Shown: piece by piece, positions 5,600 to 27,890 of the stretch
Layout: every line of letters starts with the position of its first letter
Position numbering within the stretch: the first letter of the stretch is position 1
Source: Hysterangium stoloniferum
Taxonomy: Eukaryota; Basidiomycota; Agaricomycetes; Hysterangiales; Hysterangiaceae
Direction: 5' to 3'
Length of the DNA: 64,000 bases
Assembly (NCBI GenBank): GCA_015178975.1
Contig: WHVD01000006.1
Span: forward strand, 186,001-250,000
Notes under the pieces: generated by a model
Database searches by the model: none
Told to the model about the DNA's origin: nothing
Seen by the model: only the letters and a program-made list of their open reading frames with translations
Translations under genes and position numbers: made by a program

Positions 5600-6725
5600 T
5601 ATTACCCAATATATGTATGTGCTGGCATGGCCCAGTACACCTTGGTGTTACTGTGCAGTGACAGTTCTGGGTGGAATAAGGCCCAGTGCCATATCCACAG
5701 GCTGTGGTGTTTGGACAGGATTGTACAAAGTGGCCACTGCTGACAATCAAAGCAATGTGTGATACTGTACTTAGCTGAATCAACTGGAAGGCTGAAATGC
5801 TAAGGGTTAAGAGGATATGTAAGAGTTGTGGCTGGCCAACAATGTCTTCAAGAGTATTAGAAACAAGCAAAGGGGCTTAAATGCAAAAGGGGTAATCTAA
5901 GTCAATATTTGAACTGGAGACTATATAGCATACATGAGAGGGTCTTATACAAAAGTATGACAGATGATTGGAAGGCTGATCAAGGAAGTGAGAAGTCATG
6001 ATGGGTCAAAGGAAAGTGGGGAAAGGAACAAGGATCAAATTGAGACTAGATGTGATGAAACACAAGTATTCTAAAGGTTGTGAGGTGGCAAATAAAACAT
6101 ACACATCAAATGGGTGACAGGAGAGCATTGGAATGGAGATGGGATGGGATGGTCAAAAGATCTACAGAGGAACAGGTGTTGGGGCACTATTAGAATCCTC
6201 ACCCTTTCAGACCCCCACAACTTGGTCTTACCTTGATAACCTTTCCAGGACCCTGACATCAGTGCCTTGGACTATGGAGCCACTGCCTTGGGACCCTGAC
6301 ATTTGGTTTATGTTGTCATCCCTGTCCTTCATCCCCCACAACTTGTCCTTACTCTCATAATCCTCTGGCACCCTGACATCAGAGCTCCTGGGACATGGCA
6401 CCACTGCCTTGGGACCCTGAAACCTGTTTTGTTGTAGATTACCCCTTTAGACATTCCATTCCACCTCCATTCCAATACTCTCCCTTCATCTGTTCTATGT
6501 GTAAACATTATTTGCCACCTCATACCTTTTAGAATACTTTTGTTACATCACATTTAGTTCTAGGTTGTTCCTTGTTCCTTCCAATACTTCTTTTGACCTG
6601 TCATGACCTCTTACTTCTCTCTAATCAGCCTTCTGATCATCCATCTCACTGTAGTATAAAGTCTTTCTCATGTATGTATACTACAGTTCTCTAGTTTGAA
6701 ACTTGACTTAGATTACCCTCTACTA
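5600..6725. mobile_element. LTR-D family relics in head-to-head arrangement
   Basis: Fossil LTR-type sequence (family called D here). About 5800-6180 reads on the minus strand and about 6195-6725 on the plus strand, meeting near 6190. They share a TATA-like promoter region (TATAAAGTCTT on the plus copy) and the AACTTAGATTACCC motif. Related pieces occur at 26158, 29857, 30640 and 32860. There is no coding capacity. The plus copy is interrupted at a TA at 6724-6725 by the pogo-type element. Exact LTR ends and a duplication were not resolved, and it looks old. Confidence 0.5.
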
Positions 6726-7264
6726 CAGTCGACTCTGTTATACATAACCCATACATCTTGGGATATGTGAGGTATCAGTATTATCTCATAAGTTCTCTTA
6801 ATTTTCTTTGAATTAATTAGTATTTCTTTTGAATTTATTGAATTTTATTATATTTTTATTGTGAAATATAAGGCCTAGTTCCTTTTAACTTCACATAATA
6901 TATGAGCTCATATAATGCTATTATATCTTTATTTATTTATTATAAATTTTAACTAATTATTTATCTTTTATTAACTTAGTTATGGTATCCCAGCACATTG
7001 CCTTATTGCTATGTGTGCATTTTGGGTATCATGTGACCTGTTACATAAGCCAAATTCAAATCAGTAGCATTTGCTTCCGCCCTGGATCTTGGCCTCTGAA
7101 CTTTTGAGTTCAGGGTTAGATTGAAGCCCTTGTCTCAGACTGGGAGTCATAGGATCAAAAAGGGGTAATAAATAGTTAAATATGATATTATTACTGACTC
7201 AGTAATGATGTTATAAAATAATTAAATAGATAAATTATCAAATTATCAAAATGTATATAAGGAG

Positions 7265-8065
7265 TGTTACAACCGGAAATCCCACCGGACTCCGGGCACT
7301 AACTTATATGCACCTGTGCCCTATACGCACCCATTATCAGTTTACCAGAATTCCTACTGGACTCTGTACGTCAGACTCGTCTACATTCGTCTTCATTACA
7401 TTGTGTTTCAGTCACCGGAATACTCACCGGACTCCGTCTCTGTCTATTTCCGACCTCGTCCCACGCATCAGTCACCGGACCCCGTTCAGAAAACCCATCA
7501 CCTCTCTAACAGAGCCCCATTCCTGTTTTAGTCAAATGACCTGTCACAATTCGGACTCCACTCCCACTCCATTTCCCGTTATGGTTTATGATTTGTCACT
7601 ATTCGGACTCTGCTCCATTCCATCCCGTTCCTAACACCAAATTGGTGTTTACTATTCCCGTTTTATGTTTTGCTCATTTCGTTTCATTATTACTGGATTC
7701 AGTATGACATTCGCTCCACAGTCTATTTAAACTGGCAGATGTTGTACATACAATCCAGTCAGAAATCGGCTTAGATTCCCCCCAGTAATCTAATACATTT
7801 TCCGCTCTAAAACCCTACTTGAATCACACCGCTTGCACTAGTCAGAGCCCACAGGCTCCGGTGCATCTATCTCTCTCACCAATCTCGACTCACGACCCAC
7901 AACCTCCGACCTACAACCCCTCGACCCACAACCCCCGCCCAGACTCCCCGGGATTCCCATCTGTCCATCTGAAATTGGACAACACGATCTAGCGAGGGCA
8001 CAGCCTATAAGCTGAAGCCAAGTCCTACTGGATATTCTGGAAACCCACCCTGTACTATCCTAACA
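7265..8065 (+). mobile_element. Solo LTR, family A
   Basis: 801 bp, TGTTACAACCGG...CCTAACA, with 5-bp duplication AGGAG at 7260-7264 and 8066-8070. Contains a TATTTAAACTGG promoter-like box and, near the 3' end, the AAGCTGAAGCCAAGTCC box shared by several LTR families. Among the least CpG-depleted copies in the window, so perhaps one of the younger ones. Confidence 0.85.
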
Positions 8066-8712
8066 AGGAGGGCCAGAAATCCACAATAAATAACTTAAGA
8101 CACAATTTATTGCATCAGCTCAGAAGCTTATCCCATCATCCTAAGGACAATAATAGCCTTAGTCTGATATACTAACTGCAAGCACCTACTGTACACTTGC
8201 AGAATCTAGAACTCTTTGTCAGCACTCTTGAACTTAGCTAATCATCTAAGTTCCCCAGCCTCACAGCTACCCTTTAGGCTTATTAAATACATAGTAAACC
8301 TAATAAGTATTCTTACTGAAATCCCTGCCAATACTTAGATTATTCAAGGCCCATATCTAAGTTAGTGAATTAATCAAGTACAAGCATACAAGAAAATTAT
8401 CTTCTCTGTTAATAAATTATTTAACACCTTGTTAAATATCTATTAATAGTTACAAATAAGCATACAAGAAACTGAAGCTTTATATCAAGTCTCTGCTAAG
8501 TTACTGTGCATATACTCAGCTTCTAGCCTCTATTCTCAAGGAATAGCTGTTTATTTGCTAAAAGAGTCATACACAGTTCTATTGAACCTTGCAATAATTA
8601 AAATAAGCATTGATTTTAGTTGTTTAAGCTTAATAGTGCAACTAATTAATCTATCAGTATTTAAATTACTGGACCTTTGCTTGTTTTATTGTTGAAGCTC
8701 TGTGACACTAGC
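8066..8712 (+). other. Remainder of family C LTR between two inserts
   Basis: AT-rich noncoding LTR sequence belonging to family C copy 1. Its inverted counterpart is about 10690-11381. No gene. Confidence 0.7.
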
Positions 8713-9521
8713 TGTTAAGGTTGCATACATGGAGGGTTTCCGGAGAAACCCGCAGGAAATCTGGTAGGACTTGGCTTCAGTTTATAGGCTGCACCCTCAC
8801 GAGATCGTGTTGTCCAATTTCAAACAGGCAGACGGGAATCCCAGAGAATCCAAACAGAACTCATGGGTCGAGAGGTCGGGGAGTCGAGATAGATAAGTCA
8901 GAGGTTGAGTGATAGATGCATCGGAGCCCATGGGCTCTGACTAGTGAGAGTGGTGTAATTCAAAGAGGAGTTTAGAGCAGAAAATTTACTAAGATTACTG
9001 GGGAGAATCTAAGCTGATTTTCTGACTGGATTGTATGTACAACATCTGCCAGACTATATAGACTGTGGAATGAATAACATACCAAATCCAGTAATAATGA
9101 AAATGAAACTAGCAAACATAAAATGAGATAAGTAAACACCAAACTTGGTGTTAGGAATGGGATGGAATGGAAGTAGAGTCCAAATTGTGACAGGTCATAA
9201 AACCATAACAGGAACAGAGCGGGAGTGGAGTCCAAATCGTGACAGGTCATTTGACTATAACGGGAACAGGGCTCAGTTAGAGGGATGACGGGTTTTCCGA
9301 GTGGGGTCCAGTGACTGATGCATGGGACAGAGTTGGACATAGACAGGGATGGAGTCCGGCAGGTATTCCGGTGACTGATACATGAAGTAACGAAGTCGAA
9401 CGTGGACAAGTCTGACATACGGAGTCTGGCAGGAATTCCGGTAAACTGACAATTGGTGTGTATAGGGTATGGGTGCATATAAGTTAGTGCCTGGAGTCCG
9501 GCAGGAATTCTGGTCATAACA
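8713..9521 (-). mobile_element. Solo LTR, family A
   Basis: 809 bp, reading on the minus strand, with 5-bp duplication CTAGC at 8708-8712 and 9522-9526. It is inserted in the same family C LTR as the copy at 7265, in opposite orientation. Open frames inside (for example 8972-9517 minus) are fortuitous readings of LTR sequence and recur in other copies. Confidence 0.85.
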
Positions 9522-9691
9522 CTAGCATTTATTGAGCTATCTGAGAGAAGCCCATAAATACATTACAGGATAGGTCCAGGGGTATGGGTTTTGGGAGAGT
9601 ATGGGTTATGAGGGAGGTTGATCATTGACAAGGCAAAGTTCACAACTGTCTATATAAATTCAAACCTACTAACATTACTGTAGGATGCAAA

Positions 9692-10660
9692 CTATTTAGG
9701 TTCGAAATAGCTATTTAATTTTGTCACTTTCATGGATTGTATCTCAAGAACCCATGTCCTCTTCCCCAATGAGCCCAGTATTGACTCCAGCTTATGCACA
9801 AATGAATCATCAAATTCCTTGATGTATTTTCCCAAAACTAACACTGCCTGGAGTGCTTTGCTATGTGTAGGAGCCAGTTCAACAGGCCCACTGTTGCTGT
9901 CTGCCTCATTGCTATTCCCCTCACTGTTCACTTTCTGCACTGCTTTTGCATCCATTACAGCTTGGTAGAGATCTTCATCAGTTGACTCAAAGATATTGTA
10001 TATTGGCAGCTGGGTTGAGAAGTTGTGCAACATCCATTCAGTTCAAGCATTGGAGGGCCTCAGTAAGCTCCAAATCATCCAATGCTTCACAGACAGTGTT
10101 CTCAGCTTGCACAACAGGATCATTCAGGTTGCATAATTTGGTGGCATGGATTAGTGATGAGATGGAAAGGGATGGTTGAATGAGGGGTGATGATGGTGAT
10201 GAGTTGGTATTGGGAAGAATGTTGGCTTTACACCAGCAGTTTTGGATCATTGCTGTGTCCACCTTGTTCCATGCATCATCAGTGAGTCACATAGCTTTGA
10301 GTTGACCAATGTTATAGATTTGTGATAGAGTGACACCAGTTTTATAGAGGTGGATGGCACAGTTGATAAATTGGACATGATATTTTGCCTTGAAACAGTG
10401 AATGACTCCCTGGTCATTAGGTTGAATCTGTGCAGTGAGGTTGGGCTTGAAATTAAAAACTTGTACATATGTTGGTGAGGGTCTCTGGGATGATGTGTCC
10501 TGAGAAGTTGTCCTGCAAAAGTAGAATCTTCCAGTCTTCACTCTGGAGCTTCCTATCCCAATCCAACAGCCACTCCTGATAGAGAGTGCCTGTCATCCAT
10601 GCCTTTGCATTGTTCTGATAATAGAAACCAAGTTGTGCACCAGTCTTGTTCTTGAATACC
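9692..10660 (-). pseudogene. pogo-type transposase, C-terminal catalytic part
   Basis: Minus-strand relic of a DDE_1 (pogo/Tigger/Fot1-like) transposase. From high to low coordinate it gives NNAKAWMTGTLYQEWLLDWD, then WKILLLQDNFSGH (catalytic Asp region) and LTAQIQPNDQGVIHCFKAKY (the third catalytic acidic position is usually D in the PNDQG motif of pogo families). AMIQNCWCKANILPN follows, then an acidic tail ending SYFEPK. The reading frame changes at least twice in about 970 bases (three overlapping open frames), so it is not functional. The rest of the protein lies at 22250-23073, separated by the 11.6 kb insertion whose flanks share the duplication CCATG. Confidence 0.75.
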
Positions 10661-12015
10661 CATGTGTAATGTATTCAGGGGATTCTCTTAGATAGCTCAA
10701 TATATGCTATAGTGTCACAGAGCTTCAACAATAAAACAAGCAAAGGTCCAGTAATTTAAATACTGATAGATTAATGAGCTGCACTATTGAGCTTAAACAA
10801 CTCAAATCAATGCTTATTTTGATTATTTAAAGGTTCAATGGACAATATATGACTCTTTTAGCAAATAAAAGAACTATTCCTTGAGAATAGGGGCTAGAAG
10901 CTGAGTATATGCGCAGTAACTTAGCAGAGACTTGATATAAAGCTTCGGATTCTTGTATGCCTATTTGTAACTATTAATAGTTATTTAACAAGGTGTTAAA
11001 TAATTTATTAATAGAGAAAATAATTTGTATTGGATTATCTGAGTGCTTGTACTTGATTAATTCAATAAACTTAGGGCTGGGCGTTGAATAATCTAGTATT
11101 GGCAGGGAATTTCAGTAACGATACTTAGATACTTATTAGGTTTATTATGTAATTAATAAGCCTAAAGGTAACTGTGAGGCAGGGGAAACTTAGATGATTA
11201 GCTAAGTTCAAGAGTTGCTGACAAAGATTCAAGATGCTGCAAGTGTAGGTGCTTGCAGTGAGTGTATCAGACTAAGGCTATTATTGTCCTTAGGATGATT
11301 AGATAAGCTTCTGAGCTGTGCAGTAAAATGTGTGTATGATAAGATTATTTTATTGGAAACTTGGCCCTCCTTATATACATTTTGATAACTAGTGATTGGC
11401 AAGGCCCGGCCTCAGGCCATGGGCTGGCTGAGCCAGGCCCTGAAAAGCCCAGGCTGAGCTGTACTTATCCAGCTTCGTCTATGTGTTGTGATGAGAGCAG
11501 AGAGCTGTATGGTTGGGTAGGGGGAGAGCTTAGCTCTCCGCGTATGCGTGGGAAGACTCGCCACTCAGGAGGGCGGGTCCTCTCTCGCAGTACAACTCTC
11601 ACTCTCACTTAACAATAGATTAAACAATCATTAAATATTAAATTTGATTCATTGATTAACCCAAATCCTCAATATGGGGGAAGGGTGGGTGGGAGAAATA
11701 AAAGAAAGAATTAATGAATGATAATCCGTGAAAGGATGCGAAATTTTCAGATACTGTACTGACAGAGATGTTGTAGGAAACAAAAGGCGTGCGACTCCTT
11801 CATACACTCGGCTGGACGTTGAGTGCCGAACTACTCCCGGCACGCAGGGATTGTGCGGCACTTGATACTATCCAGCTTCGTCTATGTGTCGTGATGAGAG
11901 CAGAGAGCTGTATGGTTGGGTAGGGGGAGAGCTTAGCTCTCCGTGTATGCGTGGGAAGACTCGCTGCTCACCCACAAAGAACAAATGCCTGCCAAACACG
12001 GTGAGGCTACGCCGC

Positions 12016-13206
12016 CTACCCAACCAAGGCAGTTGCATTCCTTGTTGAAAGGTTCTCCAAATGCCGTGATGCTATCTGTTCAAAGGCCCTGATGTATGTT
12101 TCATATGCTAATGACTTCCATCTGCCTGCTAATCTCACGATTTCAGGATCAACTCCTTGCGCTAGAAAAAAGGATGCCCCGCCGATACGAAATGAATGTC
12201 CAAAGGTTGTTCCCCATCCCCATGCGTTAAGAATGAGATTTATTCGTTCGAGTGCAGCTTTTTTGACTATCGGTCTTACTGCACCTCTGTCATCTAGCCA
12301 ACAAAACAGTGGTTCTTCAGGTCCGGCTGGTACGACTTTTGATAAATTGATTAGTGCGTCTATTGGGCATGTCCCTTGCTGATCTGTTAGGTATACTGCT
12401 TGGATTACACCAGATTTGGCTGTTTTAGCCGCAGGTAAGTCCAAACGTGCATACCTCCTGCCATCGTTGTCATGGCTAATTAGGACATCCTTTCGCTTCA
12501 AATGCTTATTGCCATCAAAATGTGTTCTGGATGATACCGTGACCTCCCCGAAACGCATTAAACCCCAAAAGGCGCACGTAGATATGGCCCATACACAGGC
12601 ATCGAAGGAGTTGTTCAAATCCAATGACGCCTTCAACGCGCATAGCATCCTCAATTTTATCGGTGGACATGGGGGCCGCTTTCGTGTATTGCCTTGTAAG
12701 TTCTCTAGCCCCCTTAGTGACCATTCAATTCTCGTTTGTTCGTCATCTGACAGGGGTGGCGGCCAACCTTGAGCTATGTGCCATGCTCTAACCGCCGCTA
12801 GGTATTTCCGAGTAACCCCAACTGACACAGTCTCAAATGCTGTCCCAGCAGTTAGCTCCTGACTGAGCAATGATGAGTCCGCTGCTGCCCAAAGTGCGAA
12901 AGAATGTAAAATTGGGAAGGACACCGGCAATCTTTCCGATTCAGCTACAGAGAAGATATCACAAAATACATGGAACTTGCGGAGACCGGATCCGTAGCTA
13001 TTTGCATCCCGCAGTGACGCTTCAGAGGCTATGGACGCTAGTAATTGCAGTACTGGGTGCTGTACAGTGGATGGAGGTGGTGTGTTGATTCCTTTCCACC
13101 TGAAGAGTCTCTCTTTAGCTCTACATGGAGGCCTCAGTACTGATGGAACAAGGTGCAATTGTCTAGCTGGTAATGTCTGCAATGATGAGGCGAAGGGCGC
13201 TGACAC
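12016..13206 (-). CDS. Tyrosine recombinase of the Ngaro-type element
   Basis: Long frame in the retroelement encoding a phage-integrase-like tyrosine recombinase. The family landmarks are visible: Arg in GLMRFGE, the H-x-x-R box in GHSFRIGG and a Tyr-containing segment in RWKSLAYETYIR near the end. In DIRS and Ngaro elements this enzyme replaces the DDE integrase of ordinary LTR elements. It is the most 3' gene, directly before the B1-A2-B2 repeats. Confidence 0.82.
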   Translation of the reverse strand: MSAPFASSLQTLPARQLHLVPSVLRPPCRAKERLFRWKGINTPPPSTVQHPVLQLLASIASEASLRDANSYGSGLRKFHVFCDIFSVAESERLPVSFPILHSFALWAAADSSLLSQELTAGTAFETVSVGVTRKYLAAVRAWHIAQGWPPPLSDDEQTRIEWSLRGLENLQGNTRKRPPCPPIKLRMLCALKASLDLNNSFDACVWAISTCAFWGLMRFGEVTVSSRTHFDGNKHLKRKDVLISHDNDGRRYARLDLPAAKTAKSGVIQAVYLTDQQGTCPIDALINLSKVVPAGPEEPLFCWLDDRGAVRPIVKKAALERINLILNAWGWGTTFGHSFRIGGASFFLAQGVDPEIVRLAGRWKSLAYETYIRAFEQIASRHLENLSTRNATALVG

Positions 13207-13217
13207 CCTTGCAGGTG

Positions 13218-14674
13218 CTACGGTGATTGGATCCGGTGTAACAAGTGGTTGGGAATGTCTAATGTGGCCTGTGATTGTATTCCAGGGAAGCCTTTGAGGA
13301 AATCGGTGATATGGCCTCGGGAAAGGGCATCTGCGATGTTCTCTCTGGATGGTACGAATTCGGCTCGTAGTTGTATTCGATTCGTGGCTAACAGTTTGTA
13401 AATTTCTTTTAGAATCATGTTTGTCTCCTTGTTGCGTGACCGGCCTTTGTTCACCACTGCAACGACACCACTGTTGTCCGAATGCACCAAGAAAACCGAA
13501 TCGGACGTTGATGCGTCACCCCAGACTGTAATGCCATCCTCAGCCCCAACTCTACCGCGACTGCTTCTGCCCATCCAATGTCACATTGGCGATGTGGGCC
13601 CACTTCGAAGCCAGGGGCCCACTTCCACACTGCCCACTGGGTGCCGACTATGATGCCCAATCCAAATGATGTACTGGCGTCCCCCCACCATCCTATGTCG
13701 ATCGGATCCGCTGATGCAATGGGGAGCTCGTTTGGCAAGTGCCACAATATGAAGTAAACCCATGACATATCTGCTTGCAATGCTGGGCTTGGGGGGAATG
13801 ATGCTCTTCGTGATGTGAAACCACGTGCGAATGCAGTTATAGAGCGTAGAAAAGGTTTTATCCATGGGAAGATGGATGCCACGTGAACCAACTTCCCATG
13901 TAGCCTCTCCGCCTCATTTGCTGAGAATCGATGCTCCTCCTGGGCCCATTGCTTGACTAGCTCCAGTGTTGCCTCGAGTTTCTCCTTCGGCATTGCTACG
14001 GTTTTTGCATCCAAGTCCCATATGAAGCCTATGTATTTCTGTACTGACGAAAAAGGTCTTGTTTTGCTCTCGCTCCAGGGTACACCAAATTGTGCTGTCA
14101 ATGCAATGAAGTCGTCTTCTGTCCAAACCTGCCCTGGCAAAGGAATGGCCAGGAAATCGTCGACCCACTTTAGCAACCACCCGAAGCCTGCCTTTCGATA
14201 TAAGGCAATCAGCATGTCTGCAATACTCCCGAATACTCCTGCACTCGAGGCCAAGCCAAATGCAACCGCCCGATCGACGTATACTAGGCCATCCCAGAAA
14301 ACGCAGCATGCGTTCTGCTGATCTGGTCGTATGGGTGTCATACAGTAAGCTGCAGAAATGTCGAAGGTGGCGGCCATGGAACCCTCTGGCAGAGATAATA
14401 TCAATGCCGCCGCGTCTGCAAAGGTACCCCATTCTGTCGGGAAGTCGTCGGGATTTATGCGACTGTTTATGAAGGAATGTATCGGGTCATCCCAGGGAAA
14501 TGATAGGTCTTGTATCATGCGGTATGTGCTTGAATTCGGTTTTGGGATCAGCCCCAGGGGAGATGTCTGAAATGGTCCTATAGCCTGCTCCAGTTCCTCT
14601 GGCGTAAAGCCCCTGGAGTAGCGGCCAATCTTTTGTTCGCTTGCTATATATTTGGTTATAAATTCTGTGTCCAC
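13218..14674 (-). CDS. Reverse transcriptase / RNase H region of the Ngaro-type element
   Basis: Two overlapping frames carry the RT palm (LGLIPKPNSSTYRMIQDLSF, then FDISAAY and KWVDDF) and RNase H-like sequence (HSDNSGVVAVVNKG, then FVPSRENIADALSRG). It lies between the gag-like region and the recombinase, the normal order for DIRS-like elements. Expression of neighbouring frames in such elements can use read-through or frameshifting (family knowledge; not shown here). Confidence 0.8.
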
Positions 14675-14850
14675 TAAGGAAGATCTGTGATTTTCGAAAA
14701 ATGGCTGTACATGATATGTGCTCCTTCAGTCCGATGTCAAATCCATTATTCAAACCTGCTATAATATTCTGCCAGTCTTGCAATATACCATATTTACTCA
14801 ATATACGCGCCGTGCCGACAGGGTCAAGCGGCGTTGTGACCCGTCTCGGG

Positions 14851-16361
14851 TCAGAGCTTCCTGCAGGATCCTGCTCCGTGGGTATCCTCGAAGCAGATGC
14901 TACACATGTGGGTGTTGATGCAGTTGGTGCCCCACCTGCACTGGGACTCAAGTGCCCAGCCGAAACAAAACTGCTTGCCATCAGGGGCTGTGAGGGCGTG
15001 TTTATTTTTGGCTCCTTTGAGGCAGGATTCTTTCCTGCCGTAGTACACTTTGACTGGCAGTCAGCGGGCAGGTGGCCTTGGACTCCACATCGAAAACAAT
15101 GTGAGGAGTCCCTGTCAGTGCGCGGTCTCTTTCACGGTGATCTGGCAGGGGAGGGGGACTCAGCTGGCCATGAGCGCTTGGGTGGTGCCATTGAGGTCTG
15201 GGACACCTTTGTTGACCGAAGTGCTGTTCGAGTTGATATGATCGTCAGCACCTCGGGATCTAAACAGCCCAAGTCATGAGACAAGTTGCGGGCAGCCGCC
15301 TCCCATTGTTGAACGTCATAGTCCATGGCAACGTCCCAACTATGTGACTTCACAATTGATGTCACAATTGCATGGTGGGCCGCTAACGCATTGGCTCTTT
15401 GGACACCACCCTGGACCCGAGTGCGGTCAACTGCCGCCATTGCTGCTGCTAACCAGTCGATTATACTGATGCTCTTCTCATTCTCACAGTCCAGCCCTCT
15501 GGCAATGATGCCGCCAGATGGTGAGATGGTAAACTCCTCTGCTCCTTTCTCTGCTCTTCGCCGCGCCTCGGAGGTGAGGGAGATGTAAGGAACGTAGTGA
15601 AGGTTCTTAAAGGCTTCCTCCACCTTGCGTGGAATTGCTGAAAAATAAAAAAAAGAGAGGGGGAGTATGAGCATGATGATTGCATAGACACCACAGAATC
15701 GAAGCTGTCACAATGCACAGCATGCATTCTGCAATGCCGTCAAACTGCTGTAGCGTATGGCATGCATTCCACAATGCCCCGCACTGTCCGTGAACTGCGA
15801 CATGCCTTCCGCAATGCCGTTGGACTGTCTGGACGGCCCACATGTGAAATTATGCAGACTGGCCGTCCATCTGTGAGATAAGGAAAGGGTGGACTTACGG
15901 ATCTCTAAAGGGTTGGCCTTAAACCTGGGTATAATATCAGGAATTGGGGCCTTCCTGTTGCCTTGGGACTCGCTAGTGGGTGAAGGTATGTTCCTGGCCC
16001 ATTGTAGTGCCTCCGGATCGAGGAACAACCTTGTCACAGCCGGCGCTGCTTCGGTTGCACTTCGTCCATCCAGGTCACCAGGGCTAGCTTCATTTGTTAG
16101 ACTATGCTTGTGCGCCAATAGCCAGGCTATCTGCGCATCCAGTAGCTCGATCTTGGAAGGTGGTGGGTGTTGGCCTACCCTTTGTGATTCGCAGTTGGTG
16201 CCAGCCCCTTCTGATAGTGGTAATGACGAAGGATCTGGCCCTGGATTCACGTCCACTGGGGCAGTCTCCACTTGTGCCCCTGTGGGAGGTGGGTTCGCCT
16301 CACCATTCAGATTTATACCTAAGTGCGCAAAGACCCCGTGTGGCAAGGCTCCAGATGTCAT
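14851..16361 (-). CDS. gag-like region of the Ngaro-type element
   Basis: Several minus-strand frames. The first begins next to repeat A1 (MTSGALPHG...). The next (15132-15674) is alpha-helical and Ala-rich. The last contains a Cys/His cluster (CFGWALESQCRWGTNC, then HMCSIC), resembling the zinc fingers of basidiomycete retroelement gag proteins. Function is inferred from position and the Cys/His cluster only. Confidence 0.6.
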
Positions 16362-17424
16362 AAGTGCGAAGAGAAATAAAAGAAAGAATTAATGAATGAT
16401 AATCCGTGAAAGGATGCGAAATTTTCAGATACTGTACTGACAGAGATGTCGTAGGAAACAAAAGGCGTGCGACTCCTTCATACGCTCGGCTGGATGTTGA
16501 GTACCGAACTACTCCCGGCACGCAGGGATCGTGTGGCACTCGATACTAGGCCGTCCACTCTGGGCCCAGCCTGAGATATTTTAAGCCCAAGCTGGGCCGC
16601 CAAGCCACAGCCTACTAGTGGCCACAAGGTAAGGACAAGGTACCGCATGGTCAAGGATCGTCAGAGTGTCTTCTGTATAATGTAAGCCACCGTTCAATTT
16701 CTATTCCAACTCCCTTGTACACAATGCTGCCAAAGTCAAAACCTTGCCTGGGACAGCCAAGTAAGTCCCCAGGGCACTCAGCACGGATCCGTACAATGAA
16801 CCGAGTGCTCCGTGATCTGAATAACATAGAATTGAGGCAACTTCTGCCAGGTTTAGTAGTTAAATCGTCTTCCACATGCCCCAGGCCAGCTGATGTGCCC
16901 ACCACCAAAACAGCATCAAAACATTTATTGAAATATAGCCTACCAATAGATGAGATTGTATGTGAAACAGGACCTGAGAAAAAAAAAATCAAGCCGGCTA
17001 TCACTGCCGCTGTCAATGGTGTGTTTTTTGAAATTCAAATATATTTAAAACAAGTAATATAATCTATTTGAATATCATTTCAGTCTCAGATGCCCCAGTG
17101 GGTAAGGATGTGATATGCAATGACATGAATGGAATTGAAGAGATTGGAGAGGAAATGATGAAGAACAAAAATAAGACCAGAGATATAGATCATTTTTTTC
17201 ATGCCCCCAGCACCATTAATGGGAAAAAAAGAAGAAAATGCAAAATTTGTCAGTGAGTACATCACAGCTACATTTTTAATTAAATAAATCAAAATTTTTT
17301 CAGTGACAGCTCAATTACTAACGAGGTGACAACTTTGCACCAACATCTCGAATCAAATCACACAGTATGTAAACTTTATGATATCTCTTTATCGATTATA
17401 AATTTTAATTATATGGTGACAGGG

Positions 17425-18225
17425 TGTTAGGATACACACACAGGGTGGGTCTCCAGAGAAACCTGCGGGATATCCGGTAGGACTTGGCTTCAGCTTATAG
17501 GCTGCACCCTCGCTAGATCGTGTTGTCCAATTTCGAACAGGCAGATGGGAATCCTGGGGAGCCCGGGCGGGGTTCGTGGGTCATAGGTCGTAGGTCATGA
17601 GTCGAGATAGTTGAGAGAGATAGATGTGCCGGAGCCCGTGGGCTCTGACTAGTGAGAGCGATGTGAATCAAGCAAGGGTTTAGAGTGGAAAATGGATTAG
17701 ATTACTGGGGAATCTAAGCTAATTTTCTGACTGGATTGTATGTATAACATCTGCCAGTTTATATAGACTGTGGAGCGAATGACATACCAAATCCAGTAAT
17801 GATGAAATGAAACTAACAAAACATAAAATGGGAATAATAAACACCAAGTTTGGTGTTAGGAACGGGACGGAATGGAGTGGAGTCCGAATTGTGACAAAGC
17901 GTAACCCATAACGGGAAATGGAGCAGGAGCGGAGTACAAATCGTGACAGGTCATTTGACTAAAATGGGAATGGGGCTCAATTAGAGTGGTGACGGGATTC
18001 TGAGTGGGGTCCAGTGACTGATGCATGGGATGAAGACAGACATAGACAGAGACGGAGTCCGGGGGAAGTCCAGTGACTGATATGTGTCGTAATGAGGTCG
18101 AACGTAACAAATCTTGATGTACGGAGTCCAGGCAGGAATTCCTATAAACAGACATTTGGTGTGTGTAGGGTGTGGTGGCATACAGGTTAGTGCCTGGAGT
18201 CCGGCGGGATTGTCCAGTCGTAACA
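17425..18225 (-). mobile_element. Solo LTR, family A
   Basis: 801 bp, minus strand, with 5-bp duplication CAGGG at 17420-17424 and 18226-18230. It is inserted in the hAT transposase gene two bases downstream of an intron acceptor. Confidence 0.85.
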
Positions 18226-20753
18226 CAGGGTGCTTATGTTAAATGGGTTAAAGAGACACCCGGAACAACAAACAAACTCCCAAAGCATCTCTTAAAAATG
18301 AGAGAAGAAATATTGACTCAGTCCAGCGTCACTGACCATTTCAAACCAGTTGGCCCAGCTAAAAATGTTATTCAATACTCAGATGAGGCTTTTAAGCAGG
18401 CCGCTTTGGAGTGGTTGATTGAGACAGATCAAGTATGTTATTACACTATTAAATCTTTACTTTATTTAGCAATAACATTGATTCCAAAGCCAATTCAAGC
18501 TGTGAATCATCCAAAATTTAAAGAAATGATTAATATTGCTTCTTGCGCCAAGAATGGGGTAAAGATTCCAGCACAAAAGGCTACCTGGGAAGGAATTATA
18601 TCACTTTTTAGGCAATACCTACTTGATATCAAGGAGAGAATAACTGTGTGTCTTAGTTTCTTTTTAAATATCAAAGTTTTGAGCTAAAAACTTTATTTCA
18701 GGGCCCAATGGTCAAGGGCAAAGTTTCATTCACGTGTGACTGCTGGCAGGCAAGTAATGCGGACTCATACTTTGCTGTCATGGCACACTGGATTGAATCA
18801 ACTGATTCAAAAACATGGACCCTACAAGCCTCACTAATTGGGTTTACAAAGATGAACTGCTCACACAGTGGCAAGCGGCTTGCAATGGCACTATTCAAAC
18901 TTATCAGCCAGGTTGATATTATCAAAAAAGTAAGTACATATAACAATTACAATGTCACAAGCCATTATTTAATATAATTTAATAGACTGGTTGGATCACA
19001 TCTGACAATGCAGCAAACAATGGCACAATGATGAGAGAGTTCATGGTCCTTTTTGAAGGAGCAACAGGTGAAAAATATGATTGGAAAGAACATCAGATTC
19101 GGTGAGTTTTTCATTATGTCTGTTTTATACAATACTAACATTAAATAATATTAAAATTTCAGTTGCCTTGCGCATGTCATTAATTTGGCCACTCAAGCAA
19201 TTATCTCGACATATTCGGGTGCTAAACACTACAACCTACATGACCCAGAAGCACACCTTCCGACTCAAGGCACAGGTGACAAGAAGGATGTATTGGGGAT
19301 GGTTCGTGCCATAGTTGTGAAGGTATGTGATAAAAGATGCATTCAGTTCACACTGATACTATCTATAATACTTCAGGTTTGAAGCTCAAGCAAAAGAAAG
19401 GATCTATTTCTCAAACTACAAAAGGACAAAGGCTCCGATCGCCCACAAACACTGTTATTAGATATGCCAGTTCATTGGTCATCTACTTTTGTTATGGTGA
19501 ACCAGGCATATCTTTTACGGGATGTAAGTGTTAAAACAGAGATGATACTTGGTTATTCTGATATTTTATATTGGTTTACAGCATGTGGACCGCTTTATAT
19601 TTGCCATAACAGCTGAAGAGAACGACATCACAAGGCATGCAAAACTTTGTTCAATTGCATTGGATACAGCAGAATGGGACGAGATCCAGGAATTTCGAGA
19701 ATTAATAAGTGTAAGTATTTTATTCAATTTCATGTCATCCAATTACCCATTGAATTGGTTTTATCAGTATGCAGATGCTGCACAACAAGCCTTCTCATCA
19801 GAAAATTATCCTACACTTTATTTAGCAATTCCGGCACTTGAGGGATTGCATGCTGCATGGACAAAGTGTCATTCTAAGTGTAGCCCATTGTTCATTTCAC
19901 CCCTAGGAGCCAGAATTGCAAAAATTGCTGAATACTATAACAAAACTGAGGAATCCAATGCCTATCTCATTGCCATGGGTATGTCATATACATTATACTG
20001 ATCTGTCCCACTTCATAGTCCCTGATATTCACAGTGCTTAATCCCTCACAAAAAGTGCAGCATTTCAAGAAGTACTGGGGTGCTGAATTAAAAACTCGGG
20101 CACTTGAGCGTGTTGAAAAAATAGTGAGAATCTTTTTTTTTCAACTTTCAATCACTAATTTATTTTTATAGTTTTGGGAACGGTACATAAAGTTATATGG
20201 AAATGGTGCTCCCGTCATTCAGCCTAAATACCCAAAAACCACAAAGCTATCGCAGCTTTTACTTGAACTCGAAAGTAGTGATGACAACGACAATGACAAA
20301 GCTTCCTTAAGTGCATCACCTTGGATGCGTGAGTACCAGTGCTGGTTTCAAACTCAAGAGGTAGTCCCAGAATCGAAGGGAATTGTGGAATGGTGGGGTG
20401 TAAGTTTTTTAACCGCAATTTTATTTATTTCATATCCTTAATTTTTAAAACAGGTTAATTGTGATAGATATCCAGTATGGGCATCCTTAGCCCTGGATTA
20501 TCTTCCCATTATGGCTTCCTCCGTATCTAGTGAGAGGGCATTTTTGGTGGGTGGCATTACACTCACATGCCGTTGAAACCGTTTAAAAAATGACAAGCAC
20601 TTCAAGTTGTCAAATGTGCAATTCAAAAGGACCTCCTCATCCATCCTCCAATGCCTTCCTCTTCATTTGAGATGGATATTGAGAGTGACGAAGAAATCGA
20701 AACAAGTTTACAGAGCAGGGATTCAGAGGCTGCATTGCTTGAAGTTGAGCTAT

Positions 20754-21479
20754 TGTTATGACCATGTCGCAACCCTATCGGTCCCGAGGTTATTGCCACT
20801 TATCAACGTTTTCAAGTTACCACTTCGGAAACCATCGGCCCCCAAAGCTGACATATGTTTTCGCGATGATCAAACTCCATTTACGCCCATGTCAAAATAA
20901 CTCGTATTGTCTGGTTAAACTTTTGATATGTCCCTTTTATTATGATGATCCATTCAATCCTATGTTTCACATATGTCTATCTATATCTGTAGTCCTTGAA
21001 CTATTTCCTTTTATCGTAATTCCGCTCTCGGTTATCATTGGCCTCCGAACTAATCATAAACTTCCCGTTCCTAGTCAAGCTTATTGTTAATACCATTTTC
21101 CGCCCTTCTCCCCGTTAGTATTTTCTAGATGCCTGTTACTTGTATATGAACCCACTGTAGTTGTAGTTACTAGGCAATCAGAATATCGACTCAGAATACC
21201 CTCATACGTCTGTAACAGTCTCATACTAAGAATTCCCCCATCCGCCTTCACATGCGCTCGCCCACTCCCAGCCCTGACCCCTTGGCCCGACACTCGACTT
21301 GTCCTTCGGTCCCGATCAGTATCTCGCTGAAAGGAACTCTTTAGGATTAGTCTTCGCCCGTCCAAAATCTTAAGGACACCCTATGGATATTTGCAAGGGC
21401 ACAGCACATAAGCTGAAGCCAAGTCCTTCCGATCAGTCCCTGTCGGCCACCAACATTAGTCAGTTTTCAGTTCTTAACA
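20754..21479 (+). mobile_element. Solo LTR, family B
   Basis: 726 bp, TGTTATGACCATG...CTTAACA, with 5-bp duplication GCTAT at 20749-20753 and 21480-21484. It splits the last codons of the hAT transposase. It carries the AAGCTGAAGCCAAGTCC box near its 3' end. A second copy is at 26592-27331. Confidence 0.85.
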
Positions 21480-22249
21480 GCTATCCTCTGATGAAGAGGA
21501 AATTTATGTGTAATATAAATTGATAATATTTTTGAGAAGTTTATTTGATTTTATTAGTAGACTACAAGTTTAAAAATCTGTTATACCGTGGCCTGGGGCC
21601 CAGACCCTCTCTCAAAGCCCAGCCTGAGATATTGGTAGGCCCAGGCCGTGAAAGCTGAGCCCAAGCTGGGGGCTTTAGGCTGGGCTGGGCCTTGCCAATC
21701 ACTATTGATAACTAAATGATTAGCTAATTATTTAGTTTATGAGGTCACTAGTTAGATCATAATGACCTCATATTCTACTTATTATTTACCCTTTATTTAT
21801 CACATGATTCCCCTCTCTGAGACAAGGGTTCTAACCTCTTGCTTGGTTCAAGGCTGCGGTCCTGGGACGGAAGCAAACGATGAGTCGGCGGAATCAATTA
21901 ATGACTCGGGTAGTCACATCCGTGACTTGTGTGACATCCCAACACTGGAGGCTTATCTAATACATCACATGACTCCAAAAATGTGCAGACAAGTCTGCAG
22001 CAAGGTGCCAAAAAGCAATAACTAAGTAAATAAAATATACATAATTAGTTAAAAATTATAATAAATTAACTAAGTAATAATAGCATAATATGAGTCCATA
22101 TATGCTATTATTTATGTGAAGTTAAAAGGAATAAGGCCTATTTTTCACAATAAACATAATAAAAATACAATAAAAATTTGAGAAAATATTAAGTAATTCA
22201 AAGAAAATTAAGAGAACATTATGAGATAATGCTGATACCTCACACCATG

Positions 22250-23073
22250 GCTTCTGATGATAAAGGGAGGTAATTCTTTTGAGCCATCTGCATTTTCTGT
22301 GAATAGATATGTGAGTCAAAGCTTCTTTCCTTTGATGCCAGAGTTTTGCTTGTCAGTGAGTCCATGATCTAGAGGCATACTGTAAATCTTTTTGATCAAG
22401 CCTAATCAACATTCAAAAATCAAAGAGAACTCATGTGTATAAGAGAGAGGATTCATCTTCATTAAAAATATCTTTTTTTGATAAGCTCTTGAATATGCAG
22501 CTGCTCCTTTTTGACTGTATCAGGAGGTGCAGAGGCTGCTTCACCATGCTGCTTCATATCCTTCAACCCATTGCATGCTTTAAAACTGCTCAACCATCCA
22601 TCACTCAGGTTGAGACATTCATCATCTGGTACACCCACAAGGTCAGCAAATGTTTTCCATTTCTGGTGAAAAACTTCACCAGTAAGAAGCAGCTTGTCTG
22701 CCATTGCCTTTGAAATCCAAAGGTCTAATATCTCCATAACCTCTGGATGCTGTGTTTGATGAATCCTTTTGGCTGAGCATGCTGGACTTCTGCTACTTTC
22801 ATACTTTGCTTGCCACCTTGCTTCATCCTTGACCTATGCTGAGACCAGTGTGTGCTTGATTTTGAGGCTGGGATAGATTGCACAAAAATGATTTGCTAGT
22901 TTCTTCTGGACCCTACCATTGGCATTATGCAAATTTAGGATCTCAATTCTTTGTTGAAGTGTTGCATTTTCTTTTTTTTGAGATTCTGCAGGTGGCTTCA
23001 GGGGTTTCCCACCAGGTGTGAGAATATCACTGGTAGTTGGGCCTACAAACAATTCACTGAGTACAACCTGCAA
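22250..23073 (-). pseudogene. pogo-type transposase, N-terminal DNA-binding part
   Basis: Minus-strand relic. The N-terminal segment QQRIEILNLHNANGRVQKKL is a typical CENP-B/pogo helix-turn-helix. After a break comes the second HTH region: WISKAMADKLLLTGEVFHQK and WLSSFKACNGL, characteristic of HTH_Tnp_Tc5-type domains. Downstream, about 22250-22460, are degraded matches to the start of the catalytic domain (NEDESSLLY and ENADGSKELP-like words in changing frames). Several stops and frame changes are present. It belongs to the same element as 9692-10660. Confidence 0.72.
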
Positions 23074-23348
23074 TGTACATCTAAAACATAGAAATTTTGA
23101 AGCCTTACACTTTCACTTCTTCAAAGGGGCCTCATTCTTCCTACCACTCTCTACAAGTCTCTGCAGCTTCTGTACAACTGTTTTGGCCCGTGAATCCAAC
23201 CTGGCAAGGCCTCATTCATAGTCAGATGCACTATCCAATGTTTCCACCACCTTTTCTTCATCTATCGAATTTCTACTGTTTATTCTTTTTTAACTAAACA
23301 TCTTCAAAGTCGGCCATCTGGCACTTATTGCACAATGTGGGGGAATAT

Positions 23349-24480
23349 TGTCAAATGTGACAAGTTGTCACAAATGGCTGAATAACAATAATGTCACACA
23401 TATGGAAACACTGTGACATGTGTGAAAAAATTATGTAATCAGTGCACGTGCATGAAAATCATCAACTTTGTGATGCACGAGAGCATTACATCAGCATATA
23501 TGCTACAATGGAAAGTAGTTAGAAACTCCTGGAATATTCCAGCAGATTCCAGGTAAAATAGCTAAAAATAGGTAAAACAAGTAGCTAGAGCATTCTCCCA
23601 TGTCTTATATTTTACTGTATATAAGGAGCTCTGCTCCACCACTGAAATATAACTCAATTTAACTACATTTATCATCAGTGTGCCACTGCATCAGCAGTTA
23701 TGTATATTCCACCCCTAGTTGGGCTGTTGGACAAATACATACATACACTTAGTCACCTCTAGTTGAGCTGCCAACCTAAGCTAACTCAGGATCCCTTGTC
23801 ACCTCTAGTTGAGCTTCTGACATAATAATCCTACCCCCTTGTCACCTCTAGTTGAGCTTCTGACAAACAATCTTGTTCCCTTTTGCCACCTCTTAGTTGA
23901 GTAGCTGGCTATCCTTTATTACTTATCCACCTCTAGTTGAGTTGTTGGTTATCAATTAAAGTAATAAATATTTTAGGTTATATTGAGATTAGGAATACAT
24001 TTCTAATTTCTCCCTGGTTTTTGGCATAAATAAATACTGAGAATATTCTTGCAAGATCCTTAAGACTACATTAAGATCCTGATAAGTTAGTAGACCCTGT
24101 AGGTTAGTGTAAATAAAGCATATATTAGCCAAATAGTGTTTTATTCTATATCTAATCTTTTGACCTGTTTATAAATAGTTTTACTGTTTGATAAATAGTA
24201 TAATATATATATAAACTAGCTAGAATCGAAGTTGAATCTAGTTTCGGAATCAGTGAATTGTTATCTATATTTTAGTAGTTGTTTTTATAGAAAAAGAACA
24301 GCTTGCAAAAACAGCTCTCAAAATCTTCTTTGTGAAGTAGGGTGCATATATTCAAGTAAACTCTTGACTTCAGGGGTTCTAAGTCTATTCAGGCTGCCAC
24401 TGATTAATATCAAATACTTAAATTATTTTACCTTGCAGTGAATTGAGTATTTGCACATTTTGATAGAGCACTGGACTCCT
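23349..24480 (+). mobile_element. LTR-like sequence, ends unresolved
   Basis: Starts about TGTCAAATGTGACAAGTTG, with a TATA-like box (TGTATATAAGGAGC, about 23620) followed by repeated motifs at 23706-23955. This is the layout of a retroelement LTR or leader with its own promoter. I could not find matching ends or a target duplication. Noncoding, no internal region recognised. It abuts the truncated side of the pogo element. Confidence 0.4.
23706..23955 (+). repeat. Imperfect repeat of CACCTCTAGTTGAGCT
   Basis: Six spaced occurrences of CACCTCTAGTTGAGCT followed by T/GCTGA or a variant, about 30-60 bases apart. They lie just downstream of the TATA-like box, so they probably sit in a transcribed leader. 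Confidence 0.7.
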
Positions 24481-24825
24481 TTTTCAGAAGATAGTATTAA
24501 AATAAGGCTAATACATCACACTTGGTCAACCTCTGATATGGGTTGACCATGTTAAGTTCTGGAAGTGTTAAGTTCCAAACACAAGGGTAAGTTCTGAGAA
24601 AGTCCGGTGTCACAGATTTTCTGGTAATTTATCCCAAACACACTTTCTTCTGGGAAGTGTCCCACAGAGTTCCCAGGTAATAAGTCTGGGGAAGTTTCTG
24701 GGGATATTAGTACAAGGAATGTAGTATCAGAATAATTACCAGAAGTGGTACTGCTGAGATGGACTTGGCTTCAGCTTATGTACTGCACCCTCATACACTC
24801 ATTCGGGTGTCCATATTTCGAGCTG
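24481..24825 (+). other. Unresolved repeat remnant left of a family A LTR
   Basis: Contains GTTAAGTTCTGG-type short repeats and, at 24762-24793, the shared ACTTGGCTTCAGCTTATG box in minus orientation. So it is probably the 3' end of another minus-strand LTR relic, which continues right of the family A insert. Confidence 0.4.
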
Positions 24826-25630
24826 TGTTATGACCGGAATTCCTGCTGGACTCTGGGCACTAACTTATATGCACCCACACCCTATATGCACCAATTGTCA
24901 GTTTACCGGAATTCCCACCAGACTCCATACATCAGACTTGTCCACATTCAACTTTGTTACTTCATGTATCAGTCACCAGAATACCTGCCGGACTCCATCC
25001 CTGTCTATGTCTGACTCTGTCCCATGCATCAGTCACTGGACCCTGCTCAGAAAGCCCATCATCCCTCTAACTGAGCCCCATTCCCATTATAGTCAAATGA
25101 CCTGTCACAATTTGGACTCTGCTCCTGCTCCATTCCTGTTATGATTTTATGACCTGTCACAATTTGGACTCTGCTCTGTTCCATCCCATTCCTAACACCA
25201 AGTTTGGTGTTTACTTATCTCGTTTTATGTTTGTTAGTTTCATTTTCATTATTACTGGATTTGGTATGTTATTCATTCCACAGTCTATATAGTCTGGCAG
25301 ATGTTGTACATACAATCCAGTCAGAAAATCAGCTTAGATTCTCCCCAGTAATCTTAGTATATTTTCTGCTCTAAACTCCTCTTTGAATCACACCACTCTC
25401 ACTAGTTGGAGCCCACAGGCTCTGACGCATCTATCACTCAACCTCCGACTTATCTATCTCGACTCCCCAACCTCTTGACCCACAAACCCTGCCCAGACTC
25501 CCCAGGATTCCGCACCCATTTGAAATTGGACAATACGATCTCATGAGGGTGCAGCCTATAAGCTGAAGCCGGGTCCTACCGGCTTTCCCACGGGTTTCTC
25601 TGGAAACCCTCCATGTATGCACCCTTAACA
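24826..25630 (+). mobile_element. Solo LTR, family A
   Basis: 805 bp, TGTTATGACCGG...CCTTAACA, with 5-bp duplication AGCTG at 24821-24825 and 25631-25635. Clearly more CpG-depleted than the copy at 7265, so probably older. Confidence 0.85.
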
Positions 25631-26157
25631 AGCTGACAGAATGCATACAGGAAGATGTAGATTCTGGAGTTCCCATGGGAGTTCTGGGAATTGAGCATGC
25701 AGACAGACAAGAGAAGCAGAGACTGGATCAGGTAACTTGTTTGAGGGTGTAACTTGTTTGAGGGTGTAACTTGTTTGAGGGTGTAACTTGTTTGAGGGTG
25801 TAACTTGTTTGAGGGTGTAACTTGTTTGAGGGTGTAACTTGTTTGAGGGTGTAACTTGTTTGAGGGTGTAACTTGTTTGAGGGTGTAACTTGTTTGAGGG
25901 TGTAACTTGTTTGAGGGTGTAACTTGTTTGAGGGTGTAACTTGTTTGAGGGTGTAACTTGTTCAAGATTCAAACTGGATTCTAAGTACATGAATATAGGA
26001 GACTTATATAGACTGTGAAATGTAATAATACCAAATCTGGTATTAATGAGGGGCAGAACTATTAAACATAAAACAAAACAAGTAAATACCAAACTAGGTA
26101 TTAGGGACAGAACAGAACGGGAGTGGGTCCAAAACATGACTTGTGTGTTCCATCTTT
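25631..26157 (-). mobile_element. LTR relic carrying a minisatellite
   Basis: Minus-strand LTR-like sequence distantly similar to family A: a TATAGACTGTG promoter-like segment, then an ACCAAACTAGGTATTAGG motif equivalent to the ACCAAACTTGGTGTTAGG of family A. Probably the continuation of the relic at 24481-24825. Outer ends not resolved. Confidence 0.45.
25732..25962 (+). repeat. 17-bp minisatellite
   Basis: About 13.5 uninterrupted copies of GTAACTTGTTTGAGGGT (17 bp), almost without variation. Because 17 is not a multiple of 3 and the unit has no stop on the minus strand, the minus frames stay open. This explains the apparent repetitive open frames (NKLHPQTSYTLKQVTPS pattern) at 25576-26137. 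Confidence 0.92.
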
Positions 26158-26581
26158 GTTAGAATCCTATCATTTTGGACCCTCACAACTTGGTTTTACC
26201 CTTGTAACCCTCTGGCACCCCACCATTGGTATCCCCAACCACAGTGTCACTGCCTGCAGTGCCTGTTAAGAGTTAAGCAAGGAGGGCAAAAGGGGATGAT
26301 TTTGGTGGTCTGAAAATGGTGAATCATACTAATTGGGAGGTCCAATTCTATAAGGTAAAGTGGAGCTTGGCTTCAATGTATGTATGTGTTGCACCCTTGC
26401 ATGAACTGTTAGGGTGCTCTGGTATTTCAAACAGAGTGGATAGTACAATAAGAATGAAGATCAACACTTAGTTCAATCGACTGGTGCACTGAAATACTAA
26501 AAGTCATAAGGTAAGAGTTCACAGCTTGCCAAAGAATGTCTTCAAAAGTATTGATAAGGGAGGAAAGAGACTGAGAACTAC
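26158..26581. mobile_element. LTR-D family fragments
   Basis: 26158-26270 resembles the 5' end of family D on the plus strand (TGTTAGAATCCTATCATTTT), while 26330-26581 is its 3' part on the minus strand, with the GGAGCTTGGCTTCAA box. It is rearranged and noncoding. A second pogo-family end starts at 26582. Confidence 0.45.
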
Positions 26582-27890
26582 AGTTAACTCTTGTTAAGAA
26601 CTGAAAACTGACTAATGTCAGTAGGCCGATGGGGACTGATCAGAAGGACTTGGCTTCAGCTTATATGCTGCACCCTCGCAAATATCCATTGGGTGTCCTT
26701 GAATTTCAGATGGGTGAAGACTAGTCCTAACGAGTACCTCTCGGCGAGTTACCGATCGGGACTGAAGGATAAGTCGAGTGTCAGGCCAAGGGGGTGGGGA
26801 CCAAGAGTGGGCAAGTGCATGCGAAGGCGGAGGTGGAATACTTAGTATGAGACTTCTAGAGATGTATGAGGGTATCCTGAGTTGATATTCTGATTGCCTA
26901 GTAACTACGACTACAGTGGGTTCATATACAAGTATTCGGTGTCTAGAAAATACTAACTAGGAGAAGAGCGGAAAACATTATTGACAATAAGCTTGACTAG
27001 GAATGGGAAGGTTACGATTTGTTTGGAGGCGGTGAAATAACCGAGAGTGGGATTACGAGAAAAGGAAATAGTCTGAGGGTTACAAGTATATATAGACATA
27101 TGTGAAACATAGAACAGAACAGATCATCATAATAAAAAGGGATGTATCAGAATTTAACCAGATAGTACAAGTATATTTTGATGGGGGCGTAAACAGAGTT
27201 TGATCACTGCGAAAGCATACATCAGCATCAGGAGACCAACGGTTTCCGATGTGATGACTTGAACAATAACTTGAAACATTGATAGGTGGCGATAACCTCA
27301 GGGACTGTTGGGTTGCAACACGGTTGTAACAACTCTTATACATATAACCCATACCCCATATAACCCATACTCCTTAATAACCCATAGGATTTTCAATTTT
27401 CCAAGTTGGTTTGCAGGGATTTTGTATTGATAACCCATATTCTCCCATAACCAATAACCCATACTGATTTTTGGTAATCATAACCCATACATATGTATAC
27501 TTGGATAACCCTGACATAATACATTAGGAAATTATTTGGTTATATAATCATTAATTTTATGTGTCCCAAGATGGCAACAATCACCAGAAACCAATCTAAA
27601 ATATTGACTTCTCTCATTATGAAACCTGTTAAGTTCTAAAAAAAGGATTAACCAAGCTTTATGACCAGATTCAAGAATGGAAAGCCAGGCTTGAGGTTGA
27701 GTTGAAAGCTGGTCTGTCAAGACCCGTTCCTGGGAACTCCATGGAGTATCCTTCGGATATTATATTAGGTTCTGAACCATCTTCCAGACCAGTATAAAGA
27801 TCCATAATCCACCAGAACCCAACCCTCATCCCTCAAGTCCCCTTTGACTCACATCCCATTCTGTCAGTCTGCCCCAACTAGACACCTTCT
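26582..27890 (+). mobile_element. pogo-family remnant, one end visible
   Basis: Begins CAGTTAACTCT after TA, then (beyond a family B LTR) TATACATATAACCCATACC, matching the left end of the pogo element at 6726. The next 170 bases hold many AACCCATA-type repeats on both sides of AT-rich spacer. No transposase. The right end was not found, so its limit is approximate and it may be a non-autonomous or truncated copy. Confidence 0.5.
26592..27331 (-). mobile_element. Solo LTR, family B
   Basis: 740 bp, minus strand, with 5-bp duplication ACTCT at 26587-26591 and 27332-27336, inserted within the terminal repeat of a pogo-family copy. Retains many CpG sites. Confidence 0.83.

Follow-up and report, generated by a model that had tools for sequence, protein, structure and literature searches.

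A six-level nest of transposable elements with an inverted right end in Hysterangium stoloniferum

How did one short stretch of a fungal contig come to hold so many interrupted transposable elements (TEs), and can their order of arrival be read from it? The question is raised by 64,000 nucleotides (nt) of Hysterangium stoloniferum DNA, called the window here (GenBank assembly GCA_015178975.1, contig WHVD01000006.1, positions 186,001 to 250,000; G000:C511:186001-250000 in our numbering). A first-pass annotation had described a five-level nest of long terminal repeats (LTRs) and DNA transposons at 5600..23340. The nest is real and all the target-site duplications (TSDs) named there are present, but its extent, outermost relic, number of levels and right flank were wrong or incomplete. 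It continues to 28203, its right limit, as a block of about 22 kb with 15 elements and 14 insertions. The depth is six levels rather than five, in the order LTR D2, LTR D, a pogo-like transposon, LTR C2, a hAT transposon, and within the hAT a Ngaro-like element and the LTRs A3 and B. Four elements are additional: pogo also holds the fragment E, the LTR G (GACCA) and a second B-family LTR, B2 (ACTCT), and G holds an LTR A4 (AGCTG). The coordinates are listed in Table 1.

Target duplications and empty sites

Two kinds of evidence carry the insertion order. Exact five-base duplications flank ten LTR insertions (D, G, A1-A4, B, B2, C1 and C2), with their ends fixed by the LTR termini and by alignment to paralogs; by a rough estimate, one such duplication would arise by chance about once in 1,000. 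TG...CA ends are present at nine of the ten, the exception being D, which starts with TA in the window; A1-A4, B, C1 and C2 each combine a TG start, a CA end and identical five-base duplications. For the second kind, the joined flanks of each insert were aligned to paralogous copies in the same 111-Mb assembly (554 contigs), the single assembly compared. Of the 98 fetched loci, 3 were pieces of the window and 9 repeated places already covered; the other 86 were used, some of them separate pieces of one copy, and a match had to cover at least 20 nt on each side; a variant with a 12-nt rule used 81 of the 98. At least one spanning locus was found for 13 of the 14 insertions (with 6-16 gap columns for the Ngaro-like element and 21-22 for E), and the empty site of the fourteenth, B2, was read by eye in paralogs. 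The paralogous empty sites agree independently with the exact duplications, beyond chance, and together they support the nested order as a relative chronology.

The outermost relic had been described as one LTR hit by pogo at TA 6724-6725. The TA junction stands, but the relic consists of two LTRs. Matches to 5600-6730 form two sets (query about 169-588 and 588-1121), and a single LTR from about 5600 to 6725 was ruled out by this split near 6187/6190. Copy L035 runs from 5768-6187 directly into the reverse complement of 26263-26157, sharing the GGCAC that forms the D duplication. Because L035 is continuous across the D site, D sits inside another LTR, D2. Twelve loci show this site empty, five at about 78% identity or more (L038 with 14 gap columns) and seven at 68-72%. 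D starts with TATTAGAATCC in the window; the starts of other copies read TGTT[A/G]GGATC in five of six, and the sixth (L027) has TATTAGGATCC. The reversed segment 26264-26580 follows 6720 in D copies of L027, L028, L031 (two) and L032, and L028 is continuous across the TA where pogo entered D. The right flank used for that site included the second TA and one pogo base, and the site was also read directly.

The transposon in D is classified by its predicted domains as pogo/Tc5-like (Tc1-mariner superfamily), with a DDE transposase and a Tc5/CENP-B-type helix-turn-helix. Pfam DDE_1 matched in two frames (E 9.7e-9 and 3.1e-9) and HTH_Tnp_Tc5 once (E 4.5e-5), the matches coming from separate pieces with X at stops. 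Its terminal inverted repeats (TIRs), CAGTCGACTCTG and CAGTTAACTCT, have TA on both sides; in other copies TA follows 7/7 right ends and precedes 5/6 left ends, the left end of L021 being altered. An end of pogo at 23340 was ruled out, as other copies continue past that point. In the window pogo is cut off at 23271 by fragment E, and seven of nine copies continue 43-44 nt later with 27714->27342 reversed. No such match was seen for L017 and L020 in that comparison, and L017 still spans the G site. On the reversed far side, 27715 is the end of G, followed from 27714 by GACCA and pogo.

Within pogo, the C1 site is empty in 9/9 copies with no gap and the C2 site in 8/9, where 10 gap columns adjoin it. 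Both sides of C2 read CCATG in the window, against CCGTG in the four pogo copies read, which is most simply explained if the window copy of pogo had mutated before C2 arrived. The A1 site in C1 is empty in eight loci, at 72-80% identity only, and the A2 site also in eight, with 0-6 gap columns. These data bear out what the first-pass annotation had read here, namely two C LTRs in pogo (GGATA, CCATG) and two family A LTRs in one of them (AGGAG, CTAGC). Its account of the deeper levels likewise holds: a hAT in the other C copy at the exact duplication TTGATAAC, whose site is empty in eight C copies without a gap, and in the hAT a Ngaro-type element, an A LTR (CAGGG) and a B LTR (GCTAT), with exact duplications for A3 and B and empty sites for all three.

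The hAT assignment follows from a predicted C-terminal dimerisation domain (Dimer_Tnp_hAT, PF05699, E 4.9e-7), an 8-bp duplication and short TIRs. Among four other copies read at both ends, 8-bp TSDs are present in L054/L060, L055/L063 and L056/L062, and L053/L061 matches at 7/8. In another C LTR, L052, the TTGATAAC site is empty and a hAT of the same family lies about 110-120 nt further on. The B site is empty in 6/6 hAT copies with no gap. One locus spans the A3 site under the 20-nt rule and five under the 12-nt rule, and the two flanking matches abut in 12 copies (query positions 878 and 1).

The Ngaro-like element has split direct repeats in A-pol-B-A-B order on the minus strand: the first A repeat (16548-16371), open reading frames (ORFs), the first B repeat (11970-11869), the second A repeat (11870-11693) and, 125 nt further, the second B repeat (11567-11466). 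The 178-nt and 102-nt pairs are each 96% identical. Seven loci span its joined flanks, which fell short of the insertion point by a few bases. Read directly, the empty site was TACT[T/C]AGGCC in 8/8 copies; the target is GTACTTAGGCC in most copies read, and the window junctions are GTACTT/ATCC and GATACT/AGGCC. The insertion has no target duplication, and Ngaro elements typically insert without one. Long ORFs of 499 and 424 amino acids are candidates for tyrosine recombinase (YR) and reverse transcriptase (RT), and carry putative HxxR...Y and WVDD motifs. Scans of these ORFs against Pfam, PDB and PHROG gave chance-level matches only, none relevant, and a 214-amino-acid ORF beside them has a sub-threshold zinc knuckle (E 0.025).

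Among the newly found elements, G has an empty site in 8/9 pogo copies with no gap, and the B2 site is intact in 7/7 pogo right ends. E joins pogo at a common CTATC.AATT, and five loci span its site. An intact insertion of E with a TSD was ruled out, given the truncation of E and the absence of about 21-26 nt of pogo at the junction. Positions 23262-23352 had also been considered as a polypurine tract beside a 3' LTR, which was dropped because both E copies on contig C153 carry that piece. These two copies (loci L102-L104) are identical over at least 1,162 nt, lie 6.46 kb apart and enclose a 1,025-amino-acid open frame with only sub-threshold zinc-knuckle and protease matches; they are probably a recent LTR element. 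On contig C75, two relatives of B lie about 7 kb apart with 92.7% identity (flanks CAATG/ATATG, matching at 3/5), and between them are RVT_1, RNase H and integrase-type domains of Ty3 type (rve below cut-off). G itself contains a perfect 17-bp tandem repeat of 13.6 copies at 25732-25962; several other G copies seem to have fewer units, their matches skipping much of the array.

Table 1. Parts of the nest in window coordinates
Feature	Position	Strand	Remarks
LTR D2, left part	5768..6187	+	outermost; 5' end truncated near 5765; closing TSD GGCAC 6183-6187
LTR D, left part	6188..6725	+	to pogo TA target 6724-6725
pogo left terminal repeat, CAGTCGACTCTG...	6726..6765	+	C1 TSD GGATA at 6761
C1 solo LTR in pogo, interrupted by A1 and A2	6766..9567	+	TSD GGATA 6761/9568
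A1 solo LTR in C1	7265..8065	+	TSD AGGAG 7260/8066
A2 solo LTR in C1	8713..9521	-	TSD CTAGC 8708/9522
pogo DDE part	9568..10664	- (coding strand)	DDE_1 match; nine other copies at about 89-90% identity
C2 solo LTR in pogo, interrupted by hAT	10665..22244	-	TSD CCATG 10660/22245
hAT transposon in C2	11390..21704	+	8-bp TSD TTGATAAC 11382/21705; perfect 11-bp TIRs
Ngaro-like retrotransposon in hAT	~11467-16547	-	A-pol-B-A-B repeat layout; no TSD
A3 solo LTR in hAT	17425..18225	-	TSD CAGGG 17420/18226
B solo LTR in hAT	20754..21479	+	TSD GCTAT 20749/21480
pogo HTH_Tnp_Tc5 part	22245..23271	-	Pfam HTH_Tnp_Tc5 match
E, truncated fragment of high-copy LTR-like repeat, in pogo	23272..24522	+	about 21-26 nt of pogo lost
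pogo remnant, 27 nt, between E and G	24523..24549	+	TSD GACCA at 24545
G solo LTR in pogo, left part	24550..26140	+	TSD GACCA; holds A4 and 17-bp tandem array
A4 solo LTR in G	24826..25630	+	TSD AGCTG
Inverted segment, 2,063 bp	26141..28203	.	breakpoints inside LTR G and 16 nt beyond D2 end
LTR D2, right end, inverted	26157..26263	-	second GGCAC is reverse complement of 26259-26263
LTR D, right part, inverted	26264..26580	-	second TA 26579-26580
pogo right terminal repeat, CAGTTAACTCT, split by B2	26581..26591	-	second TA 26579-26580
B2, second B-family LTR, in right pogo terminal repeat	26592..27331	-	TSD ACTCT
pogo right part, inverted	27337..27714	-	continuation in 7/9 copies
G, right part, inverted	27715..28203	-	GACCA is reverse complement of 27710-27714

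Inversion of the right end

The outer flanks had been expected to rejoin into continuous elements once the inner inserts were masked. They do not when the right side is read straight, but they do once an inversion of 2.06 kb is allowed for. It reversed the right-hand parts of D2, D, pogo and G, and hence the second pogo TA is found at 26579-26580. Position 26140 is joined to the reverse complement of 28203 in 11/11 close G copies (L041-L051; 84-91% identity, 4-5 gap columns) and in seven more distant loci (69-78%), and four nucleotides lie between the two positions in the ten close copies read. Neither inversion junction of the window was found in any of the 86 loci. When the genome was searched for the 26140/26141 junction, 40 of the 115 candidate matches were scored, and the 39 besides the window's own end at or before 26140. 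The inversion is later than G, and may precede or follow A4 and B2.

Inverted-repeat recombination as the cause of the inversion was ruled out: between the break regions, no inverted match is better than one of 19 nt at 84% (E 0.037), and their outer ends show no microhomology. Because the breaks share no convincing inverted homology, end joining probably made the inversion. It is improbable that faulty assembly produced the inversion or a section of the nest, even though the repeats around the inverted segment have many relatives. Exact TSDs mark the insertions, and the break cost G about 4 nt. The break regions have no convincing inverted homology, neither junction occurs in the 86 loci and the left one is absent from the 39 other matches, so that no template for a mis-join was found. 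That the right part is a second, independent D/pogo/G cluster lying nearby in opposite orientation is hardly credible. The region is TE-dense, with further D-family and A/B copies close by, but the two halves are complementary at four levels (GGCAC of D2, TA of D, GACCA of pogo and 26140/28203 of G) and show no overlap beyond the duplications.

The nest is best read as one set of insertions with an inverted end, and several observations weigh against this reading. D2 lacks its 5' end and its own TSD is not verifiable. The pogo-in-D site is spanned by seven loci, only two of them at 80% or more (L020 at 81%, L028 at 88%), and the A4 site by just 6 of 12 G copies (L022, L041-L051), with 0-1 gap column. 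The inversion is seen in a single assembly, with a small chance that it reflects an assembly fault, and its 28203/28204 junction was compared with the 86 fetched loci only. Terminal branches, described below, follow the nest in just 6 of the 11 pairs.

Order of events, divergence and directed insertion

The locus is very probably a graveyard of ordinary, independent transpositions, followed by one local rearrangement. By the sequence, LTR D2 was present first and received D, into which the pogo-like transposon inserted. C1, C2, G, B2 and the repeat of which E is now a fragment then entered pogo, in a mutual order that is not fixed. A1 and A2 followed into C1, A4 into G and the hAT into C2, and finally the Ngaro-like element, A3 and B into the hAT. 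At some time after the arrival of G, two breaks, one inside G and one just outside D2, inverted 2,063 bp with the loss of about 4 nt of G. The LTRs probably became solo when the paired LTRs of full elements recombined. Insertions into older insertions are tolerated, and therefore accumulate; no function is proposed.

Comparing the divergence of each element with its insertion order, as the first-pass annotation had suggested, did not reproduce the nest. The terminal branches of the window copies were 0.066 for D2, 0.045 for D, 0.060 and 0.075 for two pieces of pogo, 0.047 for G, 0.029 for E, 0.078 for C1, 0.017 for C2, 0.018 for hAT, 0.0125 for the Ngaro-like element, 0.033 for A1, 0.032 for A3 and 0.030 for B; the trees left out A2, A4 and B2, and the copies set against C1 were those selected for C2. 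The host branch was longer in six of 11 host-insert pairs (D2/D, pogo/C2, pogo/G, pogo/E, C1/A1 and hAT/Ngaro) and shorter in five (D/pogo, pogo/C1, C2/hAT by 0.001, hAT/A3 and hAT/B). Because an insertion may follow a long evolution of its unsampled source, a terminal branch is an upper limit of age, and the agreement in 6/11 pairs therefore does not contradict the nest. The chronology is carried by the duplications; divergence alone would not give the order.

Of the private C>T/G>A changes in the window copies, those at CpG made up 13/20 in the hAT, 9/10 in the Ngaro-like element, 7/8 in B, 4/6 in A3, 3/6 in A1, 3/7 in C2 (two pieces), 3/10 in E, 12/59 in pogo (three pieces), 0/14 in C1, 0/3 in G, and 0/9 in D and D2. 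Such counts are biased low where other copies differ among themselves, and trees were preferred for branch lengths. CpG loss is dominant in some younger inserts only, which suggests, at the level of base changes, methylation-driven change in these inserts.

Insertions could also have been directed into older elements, for example by chromatin-targeted integration, which would make the nest a hotspot rather than a chance accumulation. We regard this as unlikely. Other nested or adjacent copies were met, with a hAT in a C LTR (L052), pogo in a B LTR (L019) and a Ngaro beside D (L029), and the Ty3-type domains between the C75 pair include a Tf2-1-like SH3 domain. But these examples were met in passing, are no random sample and do not amount to an enrichment over expectation. 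It is a still more speculative idea that integration is steered into existing elements, so that nests grow by targeting and the 14 ordered events plus the inversion could become a calibrated clock; if so, the fixed order of events could time silencing and decay in the host. Ordinary accumulation remains the preferred reading.

Related nests and neighbouring features

Nested blocks, and chronologies derived from them, are well known; the locus is a clear new instance with ordinary biology. In PMC4387472, several-layer nested TE blocks are described in rice Cen8, their insertion history is reconstructed, and they are likened to maize blocks with reference to Kronmiller and Wise 2008. The present nest resembles them in its element-in-element structure, inspected TSDs, several layers and mixture of retrotransposons and DNA transposons. 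It differs in its fungal host, its 22-kb size, the Ngaro-like element and a breakpoint-mapped inversion within the nest. TinT (PMC3014933), a method for chronology from nested transpositions, likewise takes relative age from which element sits in which, but from the frequencies of thousands of events rather than exact sites at one locus. According to PMC3783388, Ngaro retrotransposons among fungi are almost exclusive to Basidiomycota, and their YR domains are detectable by Phage_integrase and Cre profiles. The window element shares the A-pol-B-A-B order of terminal repeats with these fungal Ngaro elements (PMC3783388), but none of its candidate RT and YR ORFs had a relevant match in Pfam, PDB or PHROG. 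Short introns and the look of the genes, along with the Ngaro-like element, would suggest a basidiomycete host. Literature searches, which were not aimed at the host species, found no paper on this locus.

At this locus the local stratigraphy is fully resolved, and empty copies allow its junctions to be checked. There is a trap as well: when the locus is read straight, its right half appears to be lost, and the 2-kb inversion emerges only from mapping to other copies. Divergence from other copies can mis-rank insertions of certain order. The practical value of the locus lies in testing TE annotation and dating methods.

Several other features lie in the window to the right of the nest. Adjoining it at about 28298-29083 is an LTR-like element, TGTTAGGACC...CTTAACA, with the flanks GGAAC and AGAAC (read by eye). 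Further D-family pieces are held by a nearly perfect inverted repeat at 29584-31081, whose 260-nt arms (98%) are separated by about 1 kb. A Tc1/mariner-like element occupies 33617-35223, with 231-nt TIRs that are 96% complementary and a weak, sub-threshold HTH_Tnp_Tc3_2 match. A host-like ORF with an Amidase match (E 1.4e-10) is present at 46242-46790 on the minus strand.

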